Shown: one piece after another, positions 4,477 through 20,503 of the stretch
How positions within the stretch are numbered: position 1 is the first letter of the stretch
Layout of the letters: each line of letters begins with the position of its first letter
Source of the DNA: a virus
Strand: one strand, 5' to 3'
DNA length: 20,503 nt
IMG/VR virus record: IMGVR_UViG_3300009529_003332
Location: 1-20,503 of that record
Translations under genes and position numbers: made by a program
Notes under the pieces: generated by a model
Databases searched by the model: none
The model's input: only the letters and a program-made list of their open reading frames with translations
What the model was told of the DNA's origin: nothing

Positions 4477-4899
4477 CTAGTCAAGATAACCCGGAAAGAA
4501 GATCCGGATCTCCCGTTGAGCGTTCTCGTACGAATCGCTCGCATGGATGACGTTGTGTCGATTGCTGGTCGCCAGATCGCCACGGATCGTTCCGGGGGCG
4601 TTCTTGACCTCGTCGCCATCTCCGGCACCGATGAGCGTTCGCATCGCCGCGATGGCGCCCATTCCGTCTGCATCAACAATCATACGGACAGATGGTCCTC
4701 CCTCCATGAACGCCACCAGGTCGTCGAAGAACGGCTCGTGTTGGAATTTAACGTAGAGTGCTCCCGCTGCAAAGCGTCCCATGATCATCCTGTCCATCTT
4801 AACGATCTTGAGCCCCTTACGCTCGATACGTGCGATGATCTCACCCATTTGCCTCGCCTTGACAGCGTCGGGCTTGATGATTACCAATGTTTTTGCCAT
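4477..4899 (-). CDS. ndk: Nucleoside diphosphate kinase
   Basis: 140 residues, the normal length for the family. It transfers the gamma phosphate from a nucleoside triphosphate to (d)NDPs through a phosphohistidine, the last step of dNTP synthesis. Visible motifs are TLVIIKPDAV at the N-terminus, the Y..FQHEPFFDDLV region (about 49-62), APGTIRGDLA (101-110) and the active-site RHNVIHASDS with catalytic H119. The usual HGSDS reads HASDS. The ATG at 4899 follows an AGGAG 11 nt upstream. Phage-encoded NDK is uncommon but known. The dNMP kinase and HAD nucleotidase at 7.7-8.8 kb give a consistent nucleotide-pool context. The gene lies between the terminator at 4993-5030 and the repeat region. Confidence 0.96.
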   Translation of the reverse strand: MAKTLVIIKPDAVKARQMGEIIARIERKGLKIVKMDRMIMGRFAAGALYVKFQHEPFFDDLVAFMEGGPSVRMIVDADGMGAIAAMRTLIGAGDGDEVKNAPGTIRGDLATSNRHNVIHASDSYENAQREIRIFFPGYLD

Positions 4900-8789: not shown

Positions 8790-9362
8790 GTGGACATCGG
8801 CCTTGGTTGGTTGTCGGATCTGATGCGGTGGGCATCAAACATCTTCCCGAGAGCTGTGCATGTCGACGCAACTCAGGAAGGTGTGATGTTCACGCTCAGT
8901 AGAGTCAAGCGAATCAGGCCTGGCTTGCATTTCTACTGGCCGCCCATCCAACGGCCGATGGTCCATCCGGTCAACAGAGATACCATTGACCTCGATCCGC
9001 AGACGTTGCCGCATGGATCGAATCATCCGATCGGTATTACGATCTCTGTTACTGTAGTGTACACGATCAACGACATCATGAAAGCCCTGGTTGAGACCTT
9101 CAACTTCCCGTCGACGATCAAAGATCGTGCACAGGCCGGCGTCATCGAAGCATGCGTCGGCAAGACCATCCAAGATCTCACCGACAGACATCAACGAATC
9201 AACAACGCCATCATGCGGAAGATCCGCAAGTCGCTCGAACCGTTCGGCGTGAATGTGGAAGACGCATTCATGTCCGATTTTCATCTGACCAACATGCATC
9301 GAGTTCACGGCGGTATGACCGTTTTGCCGATGGCTGCTGCCGAAAAGGAGGAAGAAGAATAA
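8790..9362 (+). CDS. SPFH/band-7 domain protein (stomatin/prohibitin-like)
   Basis: 190 residues from a GTG at 8790, four bases after the kinase stop and preceded by AAGGTG. The N-terminus is amphipathic (about 3-22, GLGWLSDLMRWASNIF) rather than a clear transmembrane helix. The core has the band-7 signature: GVMFTLSRV, then RPGLHFYWPPIQR (43-55), then a beta strand ISVTVVYTIND (about 85-95). A helical region follows with QAGVIEACVGKTIQDL and LEPFGVNVEDAFMSDF, as in the SPFH helical part. The C-terminus is an acidic tail. SPFH proteins form rings on membranes and often recruit proteases. A phage copy could target the host membrane or an HflKC/FtsH-type system; that is inference. Confidence 0.8.
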   Translation: MDIGLGWLSDLMRWASNIFPRAVHVDATQEGVMFTLSRVKRIRPGLHFYWPPIQRPMVHPVNRDTIDLDPQTLPHGSNHPIGITISVTVVYTINDIMKALVETFNFPSTIKDRAQAGVIEACVGKTIQDLTDRHQRINNAIMRKIRKSLEPFGVNVEDAFMSDFHLTNMHRVHGGMTVLPMAAAEKEEEE

Positions 9363-11046: not shown

Positions 11047-13125
11047 CTAAACGCCGGCAAGCACATTGAACTCCTCCTCGGTCAGCAACGTCACGCCCAG
11101 CTTCTCGGCCTTGGCCAGCTTGCTGCCGGCATCGGCGCCGACCACCAAGTAGTCGGTCTTCGACGAGACGCTGCTCGCCGCTTTCCCGCCAGCGGCCACG
11201 ATGGCTGCCTTGATGCTGTCGCGGCTATAGCCCACGAGCTTTCCGGTCGCCACGATCGCCTTGCCAGCCAGCGGTTGCGGTCCGGCCGGAGCTGCTTCCG
11301 GTTTGGGATCTACAAGCCCCATATTCAACCCAGCTTGCCGCAACCTGTTCAGAAGCCCCTGGTTCGACCGCTTACTGAACCAGTTCGTGACGGACTTGGC
11401 GGTCTTCTCACCGATACCGCCCAGCTGCTTCAAAGCCGCCCTGTCCCGCCCGCACAGTATCGCGAATACGTCACAGTTGTCCCAGTTGGCGCGTTCTTGA
11501 ACCGCCTTGCAGATCAGCTCCGAATTGGTGCGTCCGCAGTGCTTGATGTTGAGCGAGGCCAGCAAACGCCATGAGGGCTGCGTCTTGGCCCCTTCCAGAG
11601 CCGCCAGGAGCTTCTTCGACTTCCCGGGCGTCATTCCTGCAATGGCCCCCTTGGCGTCCACAGCGTCCTTCAGGACCCACAGAGAGGCCAGATCTTCGAT
11701 GACATCGGCGCCTATCATGGCTTGGATGGCCGCAGGACCGAGTCCGTCGATATCCAGCCGGCTGCGATGGCCAGCTGCGAGAAGTACGCGTTCTAGTTGA
11801 GCTGGGCAACCTGCGGTATTTGTACAAAATACCCGGGGTCCGTCACGCTCCGTCGAGGCGCCACAGACCGGACACGTAGTTGGCGGCCCGAACTTCTGCG
11901 GTCGGCCCTTCCGCTTGTCCTCGTGGACACGGACGAGATGCGGAATGATCTTCCCCGCCTTTTCAAGAGTAACCGTATCCCCCACACGCGGATCCATTCG
12001 CCTCACCTCGTCGAAGTTGAACAACGTCGACTTCGTCACGGTGGTCTCGGCGATCTCCACAGGCGCGTAGAACGCAACCGGCGTCAGCGTTCCATGTTTA
12101 CCGACCTGCGTCTCAAGTTTGACGATCGTGGTCTCCGCCTCGTACCGCTCCCACTTGTAGGCCAAGGCCCACGAGACGTGCCGGGACGAGGACTGGCCGA
12201 GCGCTAGCCGGTCGGCGAAGCTGTCAAGCTTCAGTACGATGCCGTCGACCGGATAATCAACGGCGCTGAGCACCGAGATCATCATCTCGATGTGCTTCTT
12301 CACCGCATCATAAGACATCCGCCCGCTACCAAGATCGATGATTGGGATGCCCAACATGTGCAATCCCCACATCGTATTGCTGTACAAACCGTCGATGTAG
12401 TCCGGATCGAACACGCCAAGGCCGTGGGCGACAAAACGCAGCGCGCGGCGGTAGCACTCTTTCGGATCCAGTTGTTGCATGGCGCCGGACGCCGCACTTC
12501 GCGAGTTCTTGAACGGCGCTATACCGGCCTGCTCCTGGCAGGTCACAATCTGGTGGAAGACAGAATTGGGGATGTACACTTCGCCGCGTACCTCCACGAC
12601 ACCCGTGACATCGAGATTGTGGTCGCGCGGATGAATGACCGACGACTCTACACGTCGCAACACCGGCGGCACGCCGCGAATGGACGCAGCATTATGCGTA
12701 ATGTCGCTGCCGGAGTGGCCGTCGCCCCGCGTGACCACACGCACCAGCTTGCCGTCCTGGTAGATCAGGCTCGCGGCACATCCGTCGATCTTCCAATCAG
12801 CAGCGTAGTCCGGCGCGTGCCCGAGGGCTTTCGTCACCCTGGCGTGGAACTTATCCAACACCTCCATCTCGAAGCCGTTGTCGATCGACAGCATCGGTAC
12901 GGCGTGTACCACGGTTGCCAGTCCTTTGACTGGAGCGCCTCCGACGCGTTGAGTCGGGCTGTCGGCCGACATCAGTGCGGGATTCGCCCGCTCAAGCTCG
13001 AGCAGCTCGCAAAACTTCTTGTCGTACACGACGTCCGTCACCAGCGGAGTGCTGTAAACGTAGTACGCCGTGTCGTATTGCGCGATCTCCTCGCGGAGCA
13101 TCGCAATTCTTTTATCCGGGCTCAT
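11047..13125 (-). CDS. ligA: NAD+-dependent DNA ligase
   Basis: 692 residues, full length for the bacterial family. It seals nicks using NAD+. Domain Ia has the NMN-binding residues Y21, Y22, D31, Y34, D35 and the SPTQRVGG motif (56-63). The adenylation domain has KIDG with K112 as the adenylated lysine, VTRGDG (131-136), EVRGEVY (178-184) and DGIVLKLD (294-301). After the OB fold comes a zinc finger (C418, C421, C434, C440), helix-hairpin-helix repeats (about 455-580) and a C-terminal BRCT domain (618-692). The usual NPRNAAAG region reads NSRSAASG, a divergent variant. The ATG at 13125 follows GGAG at 7 nt and overlaps the next gene by 14 nt. Most phage ligases are ATP-dependent, so this is notable. 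Confidence 0.96.
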   Translation of the reverse strand: MSPDKRIAMLREEIAQYDTAYYVYSTPLVTDVVYDKKFCELLELERANPALMSADSPTQRVGGAPVKGLATVVHAVPMLSIDNGFEMEVLDKFHARVTKALGHAPDYAADWKIDGCAASLIYQDGKLVRVVTRGDGHSGSDITHNAASIRGVPPVLRRVESSVIHPRDHNLDVTGVVEVRGEVYIPNSVFHQIVTCQEQAGIAPFKNSRSAASGAMQQLDPKECYRRALRFVAHGLGVFDPDYIDGLYSNTMWGLHMLGIPIIDLGSGRMSYDAVKKHIEMMISVLSAVDYPVDGIVLKLDSFADRLALGQSSSRHVSWALAYKWERYEAETTIVKLETQVGKHGTLTPVAFYAPVEIAETTVTKSTLFNFDEVRRMDPRVGDTVTLEKAGKIIPHLVRVHEDKRKGRPQKFGPPTTCPVCGASTERDGPRVFCTNTAGCPAQLERVLLAAGHRSRLDIDGLGPAAIQAMIGADVIEDLASLWVLKDAVDAKGAIAGMTPGKSKKLLAALEGAKTQPSWRLLASLNIKHCGRTNSELICKAVQERANWDNCDVFAILCGRDRAALKQLGGIGEKTAKSVTNWFSKRSNQGLLNRLRQAGLNMGLVDPKPEAAPAGPQPLAGKAIVATGKLVGYSRDSIKAAIVAAGGKAASSVSSKTDYLVVGADAGSKLAKAEKLGVTLLTEEEFNVLAGV

Positions 13126-14460: not shown

Positions 14461-16260
14461 TTATGTAGCGACGTCCTCCGGTTCCACCCGGTCTTCGTCA
14501 GCGATAAGGTCCTGCCCCGCGAGGGCAGCACGACCTGCCTCGACGCGGTATATTTCCCGCAACTCGGTTTCCGTCAGCCGCTGACGCACACGTGCGGCAA
14601 CGGCTGGTGTTGCGACCGTACAAGCCCACGCGAATCCGCCTACAACCCAGCGGAGCGCCATCCAGTTATGGTAGTGTTCGTAGAATGCTTTGGAGTGCTT
14701 GTGGGGCGTGATCGTCGGTTTGTCATGCAGTGCCTCGTGCATGATCAGATGGGCATATTGGGCCCACGCTCCCGGCCCAGCCTTTATCTTACGGACGAAT
14801 GCGCGATTGATCGCAACGTAGGACGCACCGTCGGTCCAGGAACGAAGAGGCCCGCGGCCCAGCACTATGCGCAGATTGCGAATCATACGCCTTTTTGGCC
14901 CGCTCGCAAAACTGGGAGGACGATACACGATATGTTTGAGATGCGCACGAATTACGCCGAGCACGACGGACTCGATACGGTTCAGCTGTGCATCCGGCAC
15001 AACTTGGCAATCGGATTTTACCGCTGTAACCAGATCGGCCCACTCTACATACTTCAGTACGTGTCTGTCATATGAACTGATAACGCCATTGACCAATGCG
15101 ACCAGCGCCGGCCCGCTGTCGAGACCGAACCGTTCCAGTGTGCTGCAGTGAACAACGCAGGCCAACGCATTCATGTTGATCTGGTCGACTATGGAACGTA
15201 TGTCCCAGCTGTGTGCGCTGTACGGCGCCCCCGCGTCCGGCGGCACCGTGATCACGCCCTTGGCGACATTGGCAATCTGCCGCACCGTAAAGTTGGCCGA
15301 CGACCCGTACTTTCTGAACAGCCGGGCACTCTTGAACTGGCCGGCCTCCAGATTGCCATCCTTGGCCTGATTGCACAGCCGTACTCGGTCAGCTTCGGTC
15401 AGCCGGACAGCCGCGGCCCGTCTCCGTGACGTCGTCTGCGGAGGCCCGTCTTCACCGACGTTCCGTGTGCGTGTCTGTTGAGTATTGACATGCTTTCGCA
15501 GCGCCGCAACGATCTTGGCCCAGACAGGGCAGTCGACCATGATGTCATTGCGTGCGAAGTTTGTTTTGATTGGAACCTTCGTCACGACGTCGCCGCCCAC
15601 GCCGTAGTGGTGGCGGTAATACGCCAGCACCTTAACTCCCTGGTTGTAGACACGCAAATCTTGATTCTGCCGGAGCACAATATCCGCTTCCGGCAGTTCC
15701 AGATCCCAGGAGATCTGCGATGTATCGGCAGTGAACTTATTGCCGTTCAACGTCACCGCGATACCGACGTATTTGGCGTTGTCCTTGATCTCGTCGAGCA
15801 TCCTCGCGTAGTCCGTATGACTCAGCTGTTGATACAGCTCGACAGTGATCCTGCAACCATCCTGATGATCGAGACCGTCCTCCAGGTGGTAATCGAGACC
15901 CTTATGATCGATGTCGATCGTCATCTCGAACTTGCCGGACCGCCAAGTATTAAAGCCGAACGCGAATAGCTGACCGCGGCCCATTCTGAATGTGCCAAAC
16001 GTCTTGTTTTCGCGGGCCTCGTGTTTCATCCCGAACCGCTCGAAAAAGGTTGTGATCTCGTTTCGAGAACGAAAACCCTTCCCGTTATCCTGAATGATCA
16101 GTTGCTCACGTGTGAGCCTGATGTCGCATCTGGAAGCGCCTGCGTCGACGGCATTCATGATGCCTTCGACTACGGCCTTCCACAAGCTGCCGGCCTGACG
16201 TTTGATGATGTCAACCAGCAGCTGCGGATCTGGCTTAAAGCTACGTTTCTCTCTTGCCAT
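14461..16260 (-). CDS. GHKL-type ATPase with C-terminal HExxH motif
   Basis: 599 residues. The N-terminal domain has the Bergerat ATP-binding motifs: the N box EGIMNAVDA (E32, N36, D39), the G1 box DNGKGF (58-63) and the G2 box FRMGRGQ (91-97). This is the fold of Hsp90, MutL, histidine kinases, MORC and phage rIIA-like proteins. No histidine-kinase dimerisation helix is seen. A middle region of about 400 residues is unassigned. Near the C-terminus is HEALH (508-512), followed by H522-x3-F526, resembling SprT/WLM-type zinc metallopeptidases (HExxH then HxxxF). The protein may thus pair an ATPase with a zinc protease-like site. It overlaps the upstream gene by 20 nt. The ATPase call is firm; the peptidase call is a hypothesis. 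Confidence 0.85.
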   Translation of the reverse strand: MAREKRSFKPDPQLLVDIIKRQAGSLWKAVVEGIMNAVDAGASRCDIRLTREQLIIQDNGKGFRSRNEITTFFERFGMKHEARENKTFGTFRMGRGQLFAFGFNTWRSGKFEMTIDIDHKGLDYHLEDGLDHQDGCRITVELYQQLSHTDYARMLDEIKDNAKYVGIAVTLNGNKFTADTSQISWDLELPEADIVLRQNQDLRVYNQGVKVLAYYRHHYGVGGDVVTKVPIKTNFARNDIMVDCPVWAKIVAALRKHVNTQQTRTRNVGEDGPPQTTSRRRAAAVRLTEADRVRLCNQAKDGNLEAGQFKSARLFRKYGSSANFTVRQIANVAKGVITVPPDAGAPYSAHSWDIRSIVDQINMNALACVVHCSTLERFGLDSGPALVALVNGVISSYDRHVLKYVEWADLVTAVKSDCQVVPDAQLNRIESVVLGVIRAHLKHIVYRPPSFASGPKRRMIRNLRIVLGRGPLRSWTDGASYVAINRAFVRKIKAGPGAWAQYAHLIMHEALHDKPTITPHKHSKAFYEHYHNWMALRWVVGGFAWACTVATPAVAARVRQRLTETELREIYRVEAGRAALAGQDLIADEDRVEPEDVAT

Positions 16261-18679: not shown

Positions 18680-18809
18680 AAACCATCATCCCGACCGCCC
18701 AGGCGATCAAGACGACGATCCAAAATGGTTTGGTTCGTGACCACGCCTGGCTGCAGAAGTTTTCGAAGGCTTCGAACTTCTCCAGGTCATCATCAGGATT
18801 CTTTGACAT
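18669..18809 (-). CDS. Small tail-anchored membrane protein (46 aa), overlapping TerL start
   Basis: The ATG (minus strand, 18807-18809) shares the CATG with the plus-strand ATG of the terminase. AGGG lies 7 nt before it. The N-terminal part is acidic (NPDDDLEKFEAFENF), then a single hydrophobic segment at about 27-45 (FWIVVLIAWAVGMM) runs to the C-terminus. That layout, and its place in a run of small membrane proteins, support a real gene. Its promoter would have to lie within the terminase coding region, or the mRNA would be leaderless, which is a reason for caution. Confidence 0.5.
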   Translation of the reverse strand: MSKNPDDDLEKFEAFENFCSQAWSRTKPFWIVVLIAWAVGMMVCYL

Positions 18810-20503
18810 GGACAACCCTGTATTTGCGGAACCGTTGGCCCTGGAATCACTGCTATTACAGGCCTCCAAGGCCTTCGGCAACCAGGGCGCCGAGCAGCTA
18901 GCTTCTGATCGTGTAGTCGCCTACAGCAAGCTGCTCCAGAGGGGCCAAATCGACACGCTGGCCCACGCGTTGCCGCTCATGCTCAATCTCAAGGGAAAAC
19001 CGTACACGCTGGTGGACCACTTCCCGTTCGAAGAGGTCTTTCGGTTCCGCATGCCCGCAGCCCTAATCTACAAGACAGGACGGCAGGTAAGCAAGTCGAC
19101 ATCGCTGGCGGCTCACGGCATCATCACGGCAATCTCGATCCCGAACATCACCACGCTGTACGTCATGCCGCTTTTTGAGCAGGTACGGCGGTTCAGTTCG
19201 ATGTTCGTGCAGCCATTTATCGACCAGTCGCCGGTCAAACGGCTGTGGTGTGGTACCGATACCGTGAATTCTGTGCTGCATCGGAGCTTCCGAAATCACT
19301 CGAAGATGCTCTTTTCGTTCGCGTTCCTGGACGCCAACCGCATCCGCGGTATTAGCGCCGACAAAATGGCCGTGGACGAGAGCATAACTCCTTGCTATGT
19401 AAGGACTTACGACGATGGCCGTTTGTCTGAGAAGTGGCTGCTCGACATAAATCCGGGTGATATAGTATTATCGGTTGCTGAGGGCGGGCAATTGGTGCCG
19501 GCCACGGTGCAAAACCTTAGCTACCACGGGAAAAGATGTTGCTGGCGGATCACTACTGCAAACGGCAGCTACATCGAAGCAACCTCGGAGTCCTGGATAG
19601 CTACAGCAGAAGGATGGCAGCGTGTCTCAACCATTATCGAACGGCAGTTTGACCGAATTTCGCAGCCGTATGCCGCAAACACTGACACGTGCGCAGGAGC
19701 ACGGGTGGTGCCAACATGCGTACAACTTGGAAAAGCGCCGGATCTTGTCTGCGTTCGTGCATATACCACCCAAAAAGCGGAAGAACTGCGGCTACGGCGA
19801 ATGGTTGAGCGTATGGACAACGTTTGGCGAGGCTGCGCTAGATTATTACTGGCACCTGTGCTGCCCGACATGCAAGCCGAAAGTTGTTCACAGGAACAAA
19901 ATCCGGTCGGCCTCGAAGCGGCCGAAATCGTCCGCATTGAGTACATAGGCGAACACGACGTCTATGACATCGAAACTGACGGTAACCATACGTTCTTCGC
20001 CAACGGCATGCTGGTCCATAACTGCCAGGATATGAACCACGAGCATCTGCCGATCATCCGTGAGACGATGTCTGCGAGTCCGCTGGCGCTGCGACAGTTC
20101 ACCGGTACACCCAAAACGCTCGATAACACGCTCGAAGCCTTGTGGAGCGCATCGTCGCAGGGGGAGTGGTTCATACCATGTCTGCACTGCACGACGGACG
20201 GCTTCCCGACGTGGAACATCCCGACCATAGAGTTCCATCTGGAACGCATGATTGGCCCGTACCATTCGGACATTTCGGAATGTCATCCGGCCACCGTTTG
20301 CCACAAATGTGGCAAACCGATCAGTCCGCGAGTGGGCCGCTGGGTGCATCGCTACCCGGACCGCCTCTGGCTGCAGGCCGGCTATCACGTGCCGCAGATC
20401 ATCATGCCGTTGCACTATGCCCAACCTGACAAGTGGGCTGAGCTGCTGGCCAAGATGGCCGGCAAGGACAACACGCCGCTGAACGTGTTCTTCAACGAGG
20501 TGC
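18808..20503 (+). CDS. Terminase large subunit with intein, open at the right edge
   Basis: 565 codons are visible with no stop. The ATG at 18808 has AGGA 9 nt upstream. The ATPase domain has Walker A GRQVSKST (91-98) and Walker B MAVDE (187-191). The intein (192-405) interrupts directly after this, and the extein resumes at C406 with CQDMN; joined, they give VDECQDM, the normal terminase Walker B region. A motif III-like TGTPKT follows, then EWFIPCLHC and CHKCGKPI, a zinc site like that of lambda gpA-type terminases. The nuclease domain is past the edge. It drives ATP-dependent DNA packaging into the procapsid. No small terminase subunit is seen beside it. The TerL call is firm. Confidence 0.93.
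   Translation, partial: MDNPVFAEPLALESLLLQASKAFGNQGAEQLASDRVVAYSKLLQRGQIDTLAHALPLMLNLKGKPYTLVDHFPFEEVFRFRMPAALIYKTGRQVSKSTSLAAHGIITAISIPNITTLYVMPLFEQVRRFSSMFVQPFIDQSPVKRLWCGTDTVNSVLHRSFRNHSKMLFSFAFLDANRIRGISADKMAVDESITPCYVRTYDDGRLSEKWLLDINPGDIVLSVAEGGQLVPATVQNLSYHGKRCCWRITTANGSYIEATSESWIATAEGWQRVSTIIERQFDRISQPYAANTDTCAGARVVPTCVQLGKAPDLVCVRAYTTQKAEELRLRRMVERMDNVWRGCARLLLAPVLPDMQAESCSQEQNPVGLEAAEIVRIEYIGEHDVYDIETDGNHTFFANGMLVHNCQDMNHEHLPIIRETMSASPLALRQFTGTPKTLDNTLEALWSASSQGEWFIPCLHCTTDGFPTWNIPTIEFHLERMIGPYHSDISECHPATVCHKCGKPISPRVGRWVHRYPDRLWLQAGYHVPQIIMPLHYAQPDKWAELLAKMAGKDNTPLNVFFNEV
19381..20022 (+). mobile_element. Mini-intein inserted in the terminase Walker B motif
   Basis: 214 codons, in frame with no stop. 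Its N-terminal residue is serine (SITPCYV), followed at standard distance by a glycine (block A) and INPGDIVLS. A block B-like segment reads ANGSYIEATSESWIAT, then AEGW. Here the usual TxxH histidine is serine (TSES). The C-terminal end is a good block F/G: HDVYDIETDGNHTFFANG, then MLVHN, followed by Cys (+1). A middle part of about 110 residues shows no LAGLIDADG or HNH motif. Codons such as ATA, TTA and AGG are used more freely than in the flanking terminase, suggesting later entry. The intein call is strong; splicing activity is not shown. Confidence 0.88.

Follow-up and report, generated by a model that had tools for sequence, protein, structure and literature searches.

Inteins are usually described as fusions, in which the homing endonuclease is a domain of the protein that is spliced out. 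The inteins of mycobacteriophage terminases (TerL) lie near the P-loop, the Walker B motif and the C-motif of the terminase ATPases, and those that were tested splice; their hosts belong to the terminase_1 and terminase_6 families, and an in-frame LAGLIDADG domain is present in both of those whose cutting was tested (PMC5050341). The ShiLan domain, described from a phage DNA methylase, conceals an HNH endonuclease that is read out of frame (PMC11855218, 2025). As to the histidine of block B, two inteins without it were known to a 2014 review, one of them a degraded pseudogene and the other Tko CDC21-1 (PMC4031507), which uses Lys58 in its place (PMC4031507, PMC6333167). Here we describe an intein in the terminase gene of a viral genome fragment, IMG/VR record IMGVR_UViG_3300009529_003332, which was analysed as one whole record of 20,503 bases (hereafter the window). 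Judged from sequence comparison and structure prediction, it very probably belongs to a lineage in which serine has replaced the block B histidine and the endonuclease is encoded out of frame, the window copy being a deletion derivative.

Like the mycobacteriophage TerL inteins, the window's intein is inserted in the ATPase motif region of a phage terminase, but the terminase is of the GpA type and the endonuclease of the family is out of frame. The likeness to ShiLan lies elsewhere: in both, the host frame runs open through the insertion and a homing-type endonuclease is encoded in a different frame, and in both the insertion occurs sporadically, at a site that is conserved in the phage gene. 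However, ShiLan combines an HNH nuclease with no splicing domain, whereas the terminase element has a HINT domain and a LAGLIDADG endonuclease, and it is thus ShiLan-like in its frame layout but not a ShiLan-type element. This was the nearest published case that we found. Our searches of the open-licence literature turned up no intein described with its endonuclease out of frame, although an earlier mention is possible, since the ShiLan paper cites Gorbalenya 1998 ('Non-canonical inteins') beside a remark on overlapping frames (PMC11855218). The features of the locus are as follows.

18808 to 19380, plus strand: N-extein of TerL, 191 residues, ending in ISADKMAVDE
19381 to 20022, plus strand: intein, 214 residues (TerL residues 192-405) and 214 open codons in the terminase frame, between MAVDE and CQDM
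19381 to 19644, plus strand: N-terminal splicing half (intein residues 1-88), containing blocks A and B and, at 19381-19383, Ser1
19582 to 19593, plus strand: block B, reading TSES, with Thr68 kept and Ser71 where the conserved histidine is expected
19601 to 19945, plus strand: open +1 frame overlapping the middle of the intein, 115 codons, the remnant of a LAGLIDADG homing endonuclease gene
19700 to 19888, plus strand: recognisable endonuclease fragment within that frame, 63 codons
19915 to 20022, plus strand: C-terminal splicing half (intein residues 179-214), containing blocks F and G, with Asp196 at 19966-19968 and the terminal pair His213-Asn214
20023 to 20502, plus strand: C-extein of TerL, with Cys+1 as its first residue, leaving the record at its end

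The terminase open reading frame starts with an ATG at 18808 on the plus strand and continues past the right end of the record. Matches to Pfam GpA_ATPase (3.9e-7) and phrog_675 (3e-28) assign its exteins to the GpA-type terminase family, and these are intact over the length that the record covers, the N-extein aligning end to end with the N-terminal part of intein-free terminases (L002-L006). The insert itself matches the profiles Pfam Intein_splicing (3e-9) and NCBIfam TIGR01443 intein_Cterm (4.7e-7), its ends can be aligned with those of solved mini-inteins, and it has the nucleophiles of a class 1 intein, namely Ser1, a C-terminal Asn214 within His213-Asn214, and Cys+1. The AlphaFold model, run with nine intein rows, has a block-mean predicted local distance difference test score (pLDDT) of 90-97 over residues 1-90 and of 91-97 over residues 181-214, and falls below 50 over residues 94-129 and 143-177, so that the middle is predicted to be disordered. 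Foldseek places the model with Ssp DnaB, Npu DnaB and other inteins (1mi8: E 5e-7, TM 0.74 on target). The high scores in the splicing halves and these matches to solved inteins show that a HINT core is present, and together with the motifs they mark the insert as a genuine intein of class 1 type, placed at the ATPase centre of the terminase, which would be expected to splice. Two other classifications were rejected: class 3 is ruled out by Ser1 and by Asp196, rather than cysteine, at position F:4, and a split intein or fractured gene is ruled out by the single open frame from 18808 to 20502.

Much of this had been proposed from the letters of the window alone. The original prediction had the insert exactly right at 19381-20022 between VDE and CQDM, it described Ser1, TSES in place of TxxH, the His-Asn end and Cys+1 just as they read, and the HINT fold and the position at the ATPase centre that it proposed are both borne out. 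Its statement that the intein splits the Walker B motif holds for the position only, as the insertion directly follows the Walker B glutamate (the -1 residue) and the motif is whole on the N-extein side.

The distribution of the insert was followed through 164 related terminase loci gathered with C-extein searches, 105 of which are distinct over 200 bases of C-extein. In 152 of the 164 there is no insert at either Walker motif and the N- and C-exteins adjoin. The closest relatives (C-exteins 84, 81 and 79% identical) run without a gap from AIDE into VQDM and thus present the exact empty site, which excludes that the insert is a normal TerL domain of close relatives, the outcome that the original prediction had named as speaking against an intein. 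The +1 residue is valine or isoleucine in 149 of the 154 empty sites read, and cysteine where the window's intein sits; given these residues and the exact empty sites, the insert is a precise mobile element that is accompanied by Cys+1. A single empty site, in L080, was read with cysteine at +1 (IDECQDM); the residue may have been left behind by a lost intein, or the site may be ready to receive one.

Other inteins occupy the same Walker B site in this terminase family, in L050 (510 residues) and in L069 and L072 (418); that of L022 lies four residues upstream of the window's insertion site, while L049 has an intein at the window's site on a contig that begins inside the intein, past block B. 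A search of viral contigs with the window intein itself gave no match. The inteins of L050 and L049 share an unusual C-terminus (L050, 3983-4000; L049, 442-459), with Pro-Gln before Cys+1 in place of His-Asn, and may splice via glutamine or not at all. A second insertion site of the family lies inside Walker A, where the intein, running from a cysteine to His-Asn, stands between QVSK and STSLA (L017, 5290-5712; L021, 4471-5715; L023, 277-705); the intein of L021 carries an ordinary in-frame LAGLIDADG domain.

No endonuclease model recognises the middles of the L050, L069 and L022 inteins when they are read in the terminase frame. In the +1 frame, the same DNA gives a long open stretch in L050 and L069 and a long one with a single stop in L022, and in all three this frame contains two LAGLIDADG motifs and matches the Pfam family LAGLIDADG_2 (PF03161; 8.7e-20 in L050, 9.1e-22 in L069 and 2.9e-15 in L022). 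The genes of L050 and L069 are full length, and the model of the L069 endonuclease (pLDDT 82.6) superposes on I-WcaI and I-SceI (E 4e-14, TM 0.75, rmsd 2.5). The offset is +1 alike in L050, L069, L022, L049 and the window. Candidate internal starts with Shine-Dalgarno-like motifs are found in L050 and L022, and in L069 the +1 frame has no stop from intein codon 8 onwards. These endonucleases are presumably translated, from an internal start or via a frameshift, and would cut the empty site; the homing endonuclease gene of the lineage is superimposed on the intein in the +1 frame instead of being fused with it in frame.

In the window, the 63-codon fragment of the +1 frame is 51% identical to the L069 endonuclease (E 1e-18). 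It corresponds to the part between the two LAGLIDADG motifs, neither of which is left, and a Pfam search of that frame gave no endonuclease match. The nearest intact relative of the remnant was sought in a scan, which returned just the contig of L069 and its duplicate. Because neither catalytic motif is retained, the endonuclease of the window is dead, a deletion remnant that has lost both motifs and kept the 63 recognisable codons. The match to the L069 endonuclease also accounts for the middle of about 110 residues which the original prediction had left unassigned, and which is the wrong-frame reading of this eroded LAGLIDADG gene; the accompanying claim of no recognisable homing endonuclease is correct in the TerL frame and fails in the +1 frame.

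A comparable arrangement was found in Xanthomonas phage FoX3 (NC_055837), a sequenced isolate, whose intein directly follows the Walker B DE in a helicase and whose LAGLIDADG gene is in the other shifted frame, not in +1 as in the terminase family. With another host protein and another frame, FoX3 is an independent case of an intein with a hidden endonuclease. The helicase gene (L112, 1908-4274) is labelled 'head morphogenesis' in RefSeq and putative DNA helicase in the GenBank record, and the hidden endonuclease is without annotation.

The open host frames were compared with chance by permuting the synonymous codons of the endonuclease, with its protein and codon usage kept, and counting stops in the host frame. 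The expected numbers were 10.1 for L050, 6.6 for L069, 6.7 for L022 and 2.6 for FoX3, and no stop was observed in any of the four. Among 20,000 permutations of L050, none left the host frame as open as observed, and the corresponding probabilities were about 2e-4 for L069, about 1e-4 for L022, 0.02-0.03 for FoX3 and 0.02 for the partial copy of L049. The third frame contained stops at the expected number, and inteins with in-frame endonucleases (L111, L114, L021) had 10-38 stops in their other frames. Between members, mean BLOSUM62 scores were 1.3 to 2.6 in the endonuclease frame and about 0 in the host frame (1.16 for the pair of window and L069), in an alignment that was built in the endonuclease frame and so favours it; in most pairs the remaining frame did not outscore the host frame. 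These patterns show that the endonuclease and terminase frames of the relatives are a true overlap, with the host frame under constraint.

A further variant is evident in the Pectobacterium phages Abuela and Amona (L121 and L122, 1617-4727), where a helicase is interrupted at the point corresponding to that of FoX3. As in the window's family, the insertion comes right after the Walker B DE and a LAGLIDADG gene lies in a different frame, here between the intein halves, and the block B histidine is present (TGNH). The host frame, however, has 12 stops where 12-13 are expected and the helicase is annotated as two pieces, so that splicing must be in trans, whereas the open host frame of the terminase family makes cis-splicing possible. 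The open host frame thus tracks the need for cis-splicing, being kept in the terminase inteins and FoX3 and broken in Abuela and Amona, and these two phages are a possible evolutionary link between inteins with hidden endonucleases and split inteins. Searches of viral and genome collections with the endonuclease alignment brought up L119, with an in-frame endonuclease, and L120, with no overlapping long frame, and no hidden case beyond FoX3.

The second peculiarity of the lineage concerns the TxxH motif of block B, which is typical, though not strictly required, of class 1 inteins and which in the window reads TSES. All four Walker B inteins that can be read at this position have serine for histidine (TSES in the window and in L050, TSDS in L069 and L072, TKDS in L022), although the other three are just 27-39% identical to the window intein. 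The histidine is kept at the Walker A site (TPDH in L017 and L023, AGTH in L021), in the intein of another phage protein (L119, TDDH) and in FoX3 (TSNH). In the lineage that carries the serine, the first acyl shift must be assisted by something other than this histidine. Large side chains at -1 can compensate in an engineered intein (PMC6333167), and the -1 residue of the window intein is a bulky glutamate. Like Tko CDC21-1, the window intein has dispensed with an otherwise near-universal residue, but in a different host protein and with serine as the replacement in four divergent members. A basic residue that might compensate in the manner of Tko CDC21-1 is Arg81, which in the alignment is common to all four serine-bearing inteins and absent from the aligned histidine-bearing ones. 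Arg81 and the glutamate at -1 are candidate compensators, to be taken as leads only. That the histidine is lost throughout a divergent family in which other members have full-length endonuclease genes argues for an alternative working active site over simple decay.

Decay is nonetheless the explanation that the window alone might suggest: a dying element that has lost its histidine and most of its endonuclease, that splices poorly or not at all, and that leaves the terminase defective. The window's endonuclease is plainly broken, and one of the two histidine-less inteins of the 2014 review was the degraded pseudogene (PMC4031507). Yet the serine is shared with highly divergent inteins, of which L050 and L069 retain whole endonuclease genes, and the window intein has kept its other motifs, both junctions and an open frame between exteins that are intact within the record. 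An unspliced insert at the Walker B motif of an essential motor would also be expected to be strongly selected against, and we consider decay unlikely. A frame artefact is far less credible still, and we give it hardly any weight: indel errors do occur in draft metagenome contigs and the L022 copy contains a stop, but paired indels that shifted a truly in-frame endonuclease, be they assembly errors or natural frameshifts, would fill the host frame with stops, where none are seen against 6-10 expected; nor would they be expected to produce an identical offset in five loci, or to recur in the sequenced isolate FoX3. Slow or conditional splicing that times DNA packaging, which the original prediction suggested and which would have the active site without histidine respond to a signal, suits an insert at the ATPase centre, but found no support; the 152 loci without an insert at the two Walker motifs package DNA nonetheless, and a sporadic distribution suits a selfish element. 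It is very unlikely.

How the endonuclease is made allows for a somewhat better-placed alternative, that of programmed frameshifting from the terminase message, which would yield an endonuclease with no start of its own, made as a fusion that begins with the N-extein and the first half of the intein. The constant +1 offset within the TerL family fits this idea, as do the weak start signals of L069 and its +1 frame open from so early a codon, while the other frame used by FoX3 and the plausible internal starts of L050 and L022 do not; on balance we regard it as improbable. The preferred reading, of a lineage with serine in block B and an endonuclease out of frame, has points of its own against it: no convincing start signal was found near the endonuclease domain in L069, the L022 copy of the endonuclease contains a stop, and the Pro-Gln ends of L050 and L049 mean that not every member of the family need splice. 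The short remnant of the window would not prove the overlap by itself, as a host frame without stops is not out of the ordinary there (P 0.07), and the statistical support for the overlap rests on the relatives.

We lean towards a broader interpretation, in which there is a class of phage inteins whose splicing domain and endonuclease are two separate genes that occupy the same DNA, each in a frame of its own. The host frame would stay open for no other reason than to let the host protein be made whole, and its opening or closing would switch an intein between the cis-spliced and the naturally split form. One lineage would in addition have settled on an active site free of the histidine. Splicing and endonuclease would then share DNA but not a reading frame, and could be translated, lost and regulated separately. 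Such a layout accounts for 'mini-inteins' with nonsense middles, and the Pectobacterium version, without an open frame, suggests a route to split inteins. Surveys of inteins in a single frame miss out-of-frame endonucleases. The lineage with serine for histidine also offers a natural series for the study of the first acyl shift without the most conserved intein residue.

The window encodes several other proteins that we record here. An SPFH/Band 7 protein, prohibitin-like and unusual for a phage genome, lies at 8790-9362 on the plus strand (Pfam E 2e-15). On the minus strand are a nucleoside diphosphate kinase at 4477-4899 (Pfam 3.3e-41), an NAD-dependent DNA ligase with adenylation, OB and BRCT domains at 11047-13125, and, at 14461-16260, a protein of 599 residues with a GHKL-type ATPase domain (HATPase_c_3, 2.2e-7), downstream of which the sequence HEALH is reminiscent of a metalloprotease motif.
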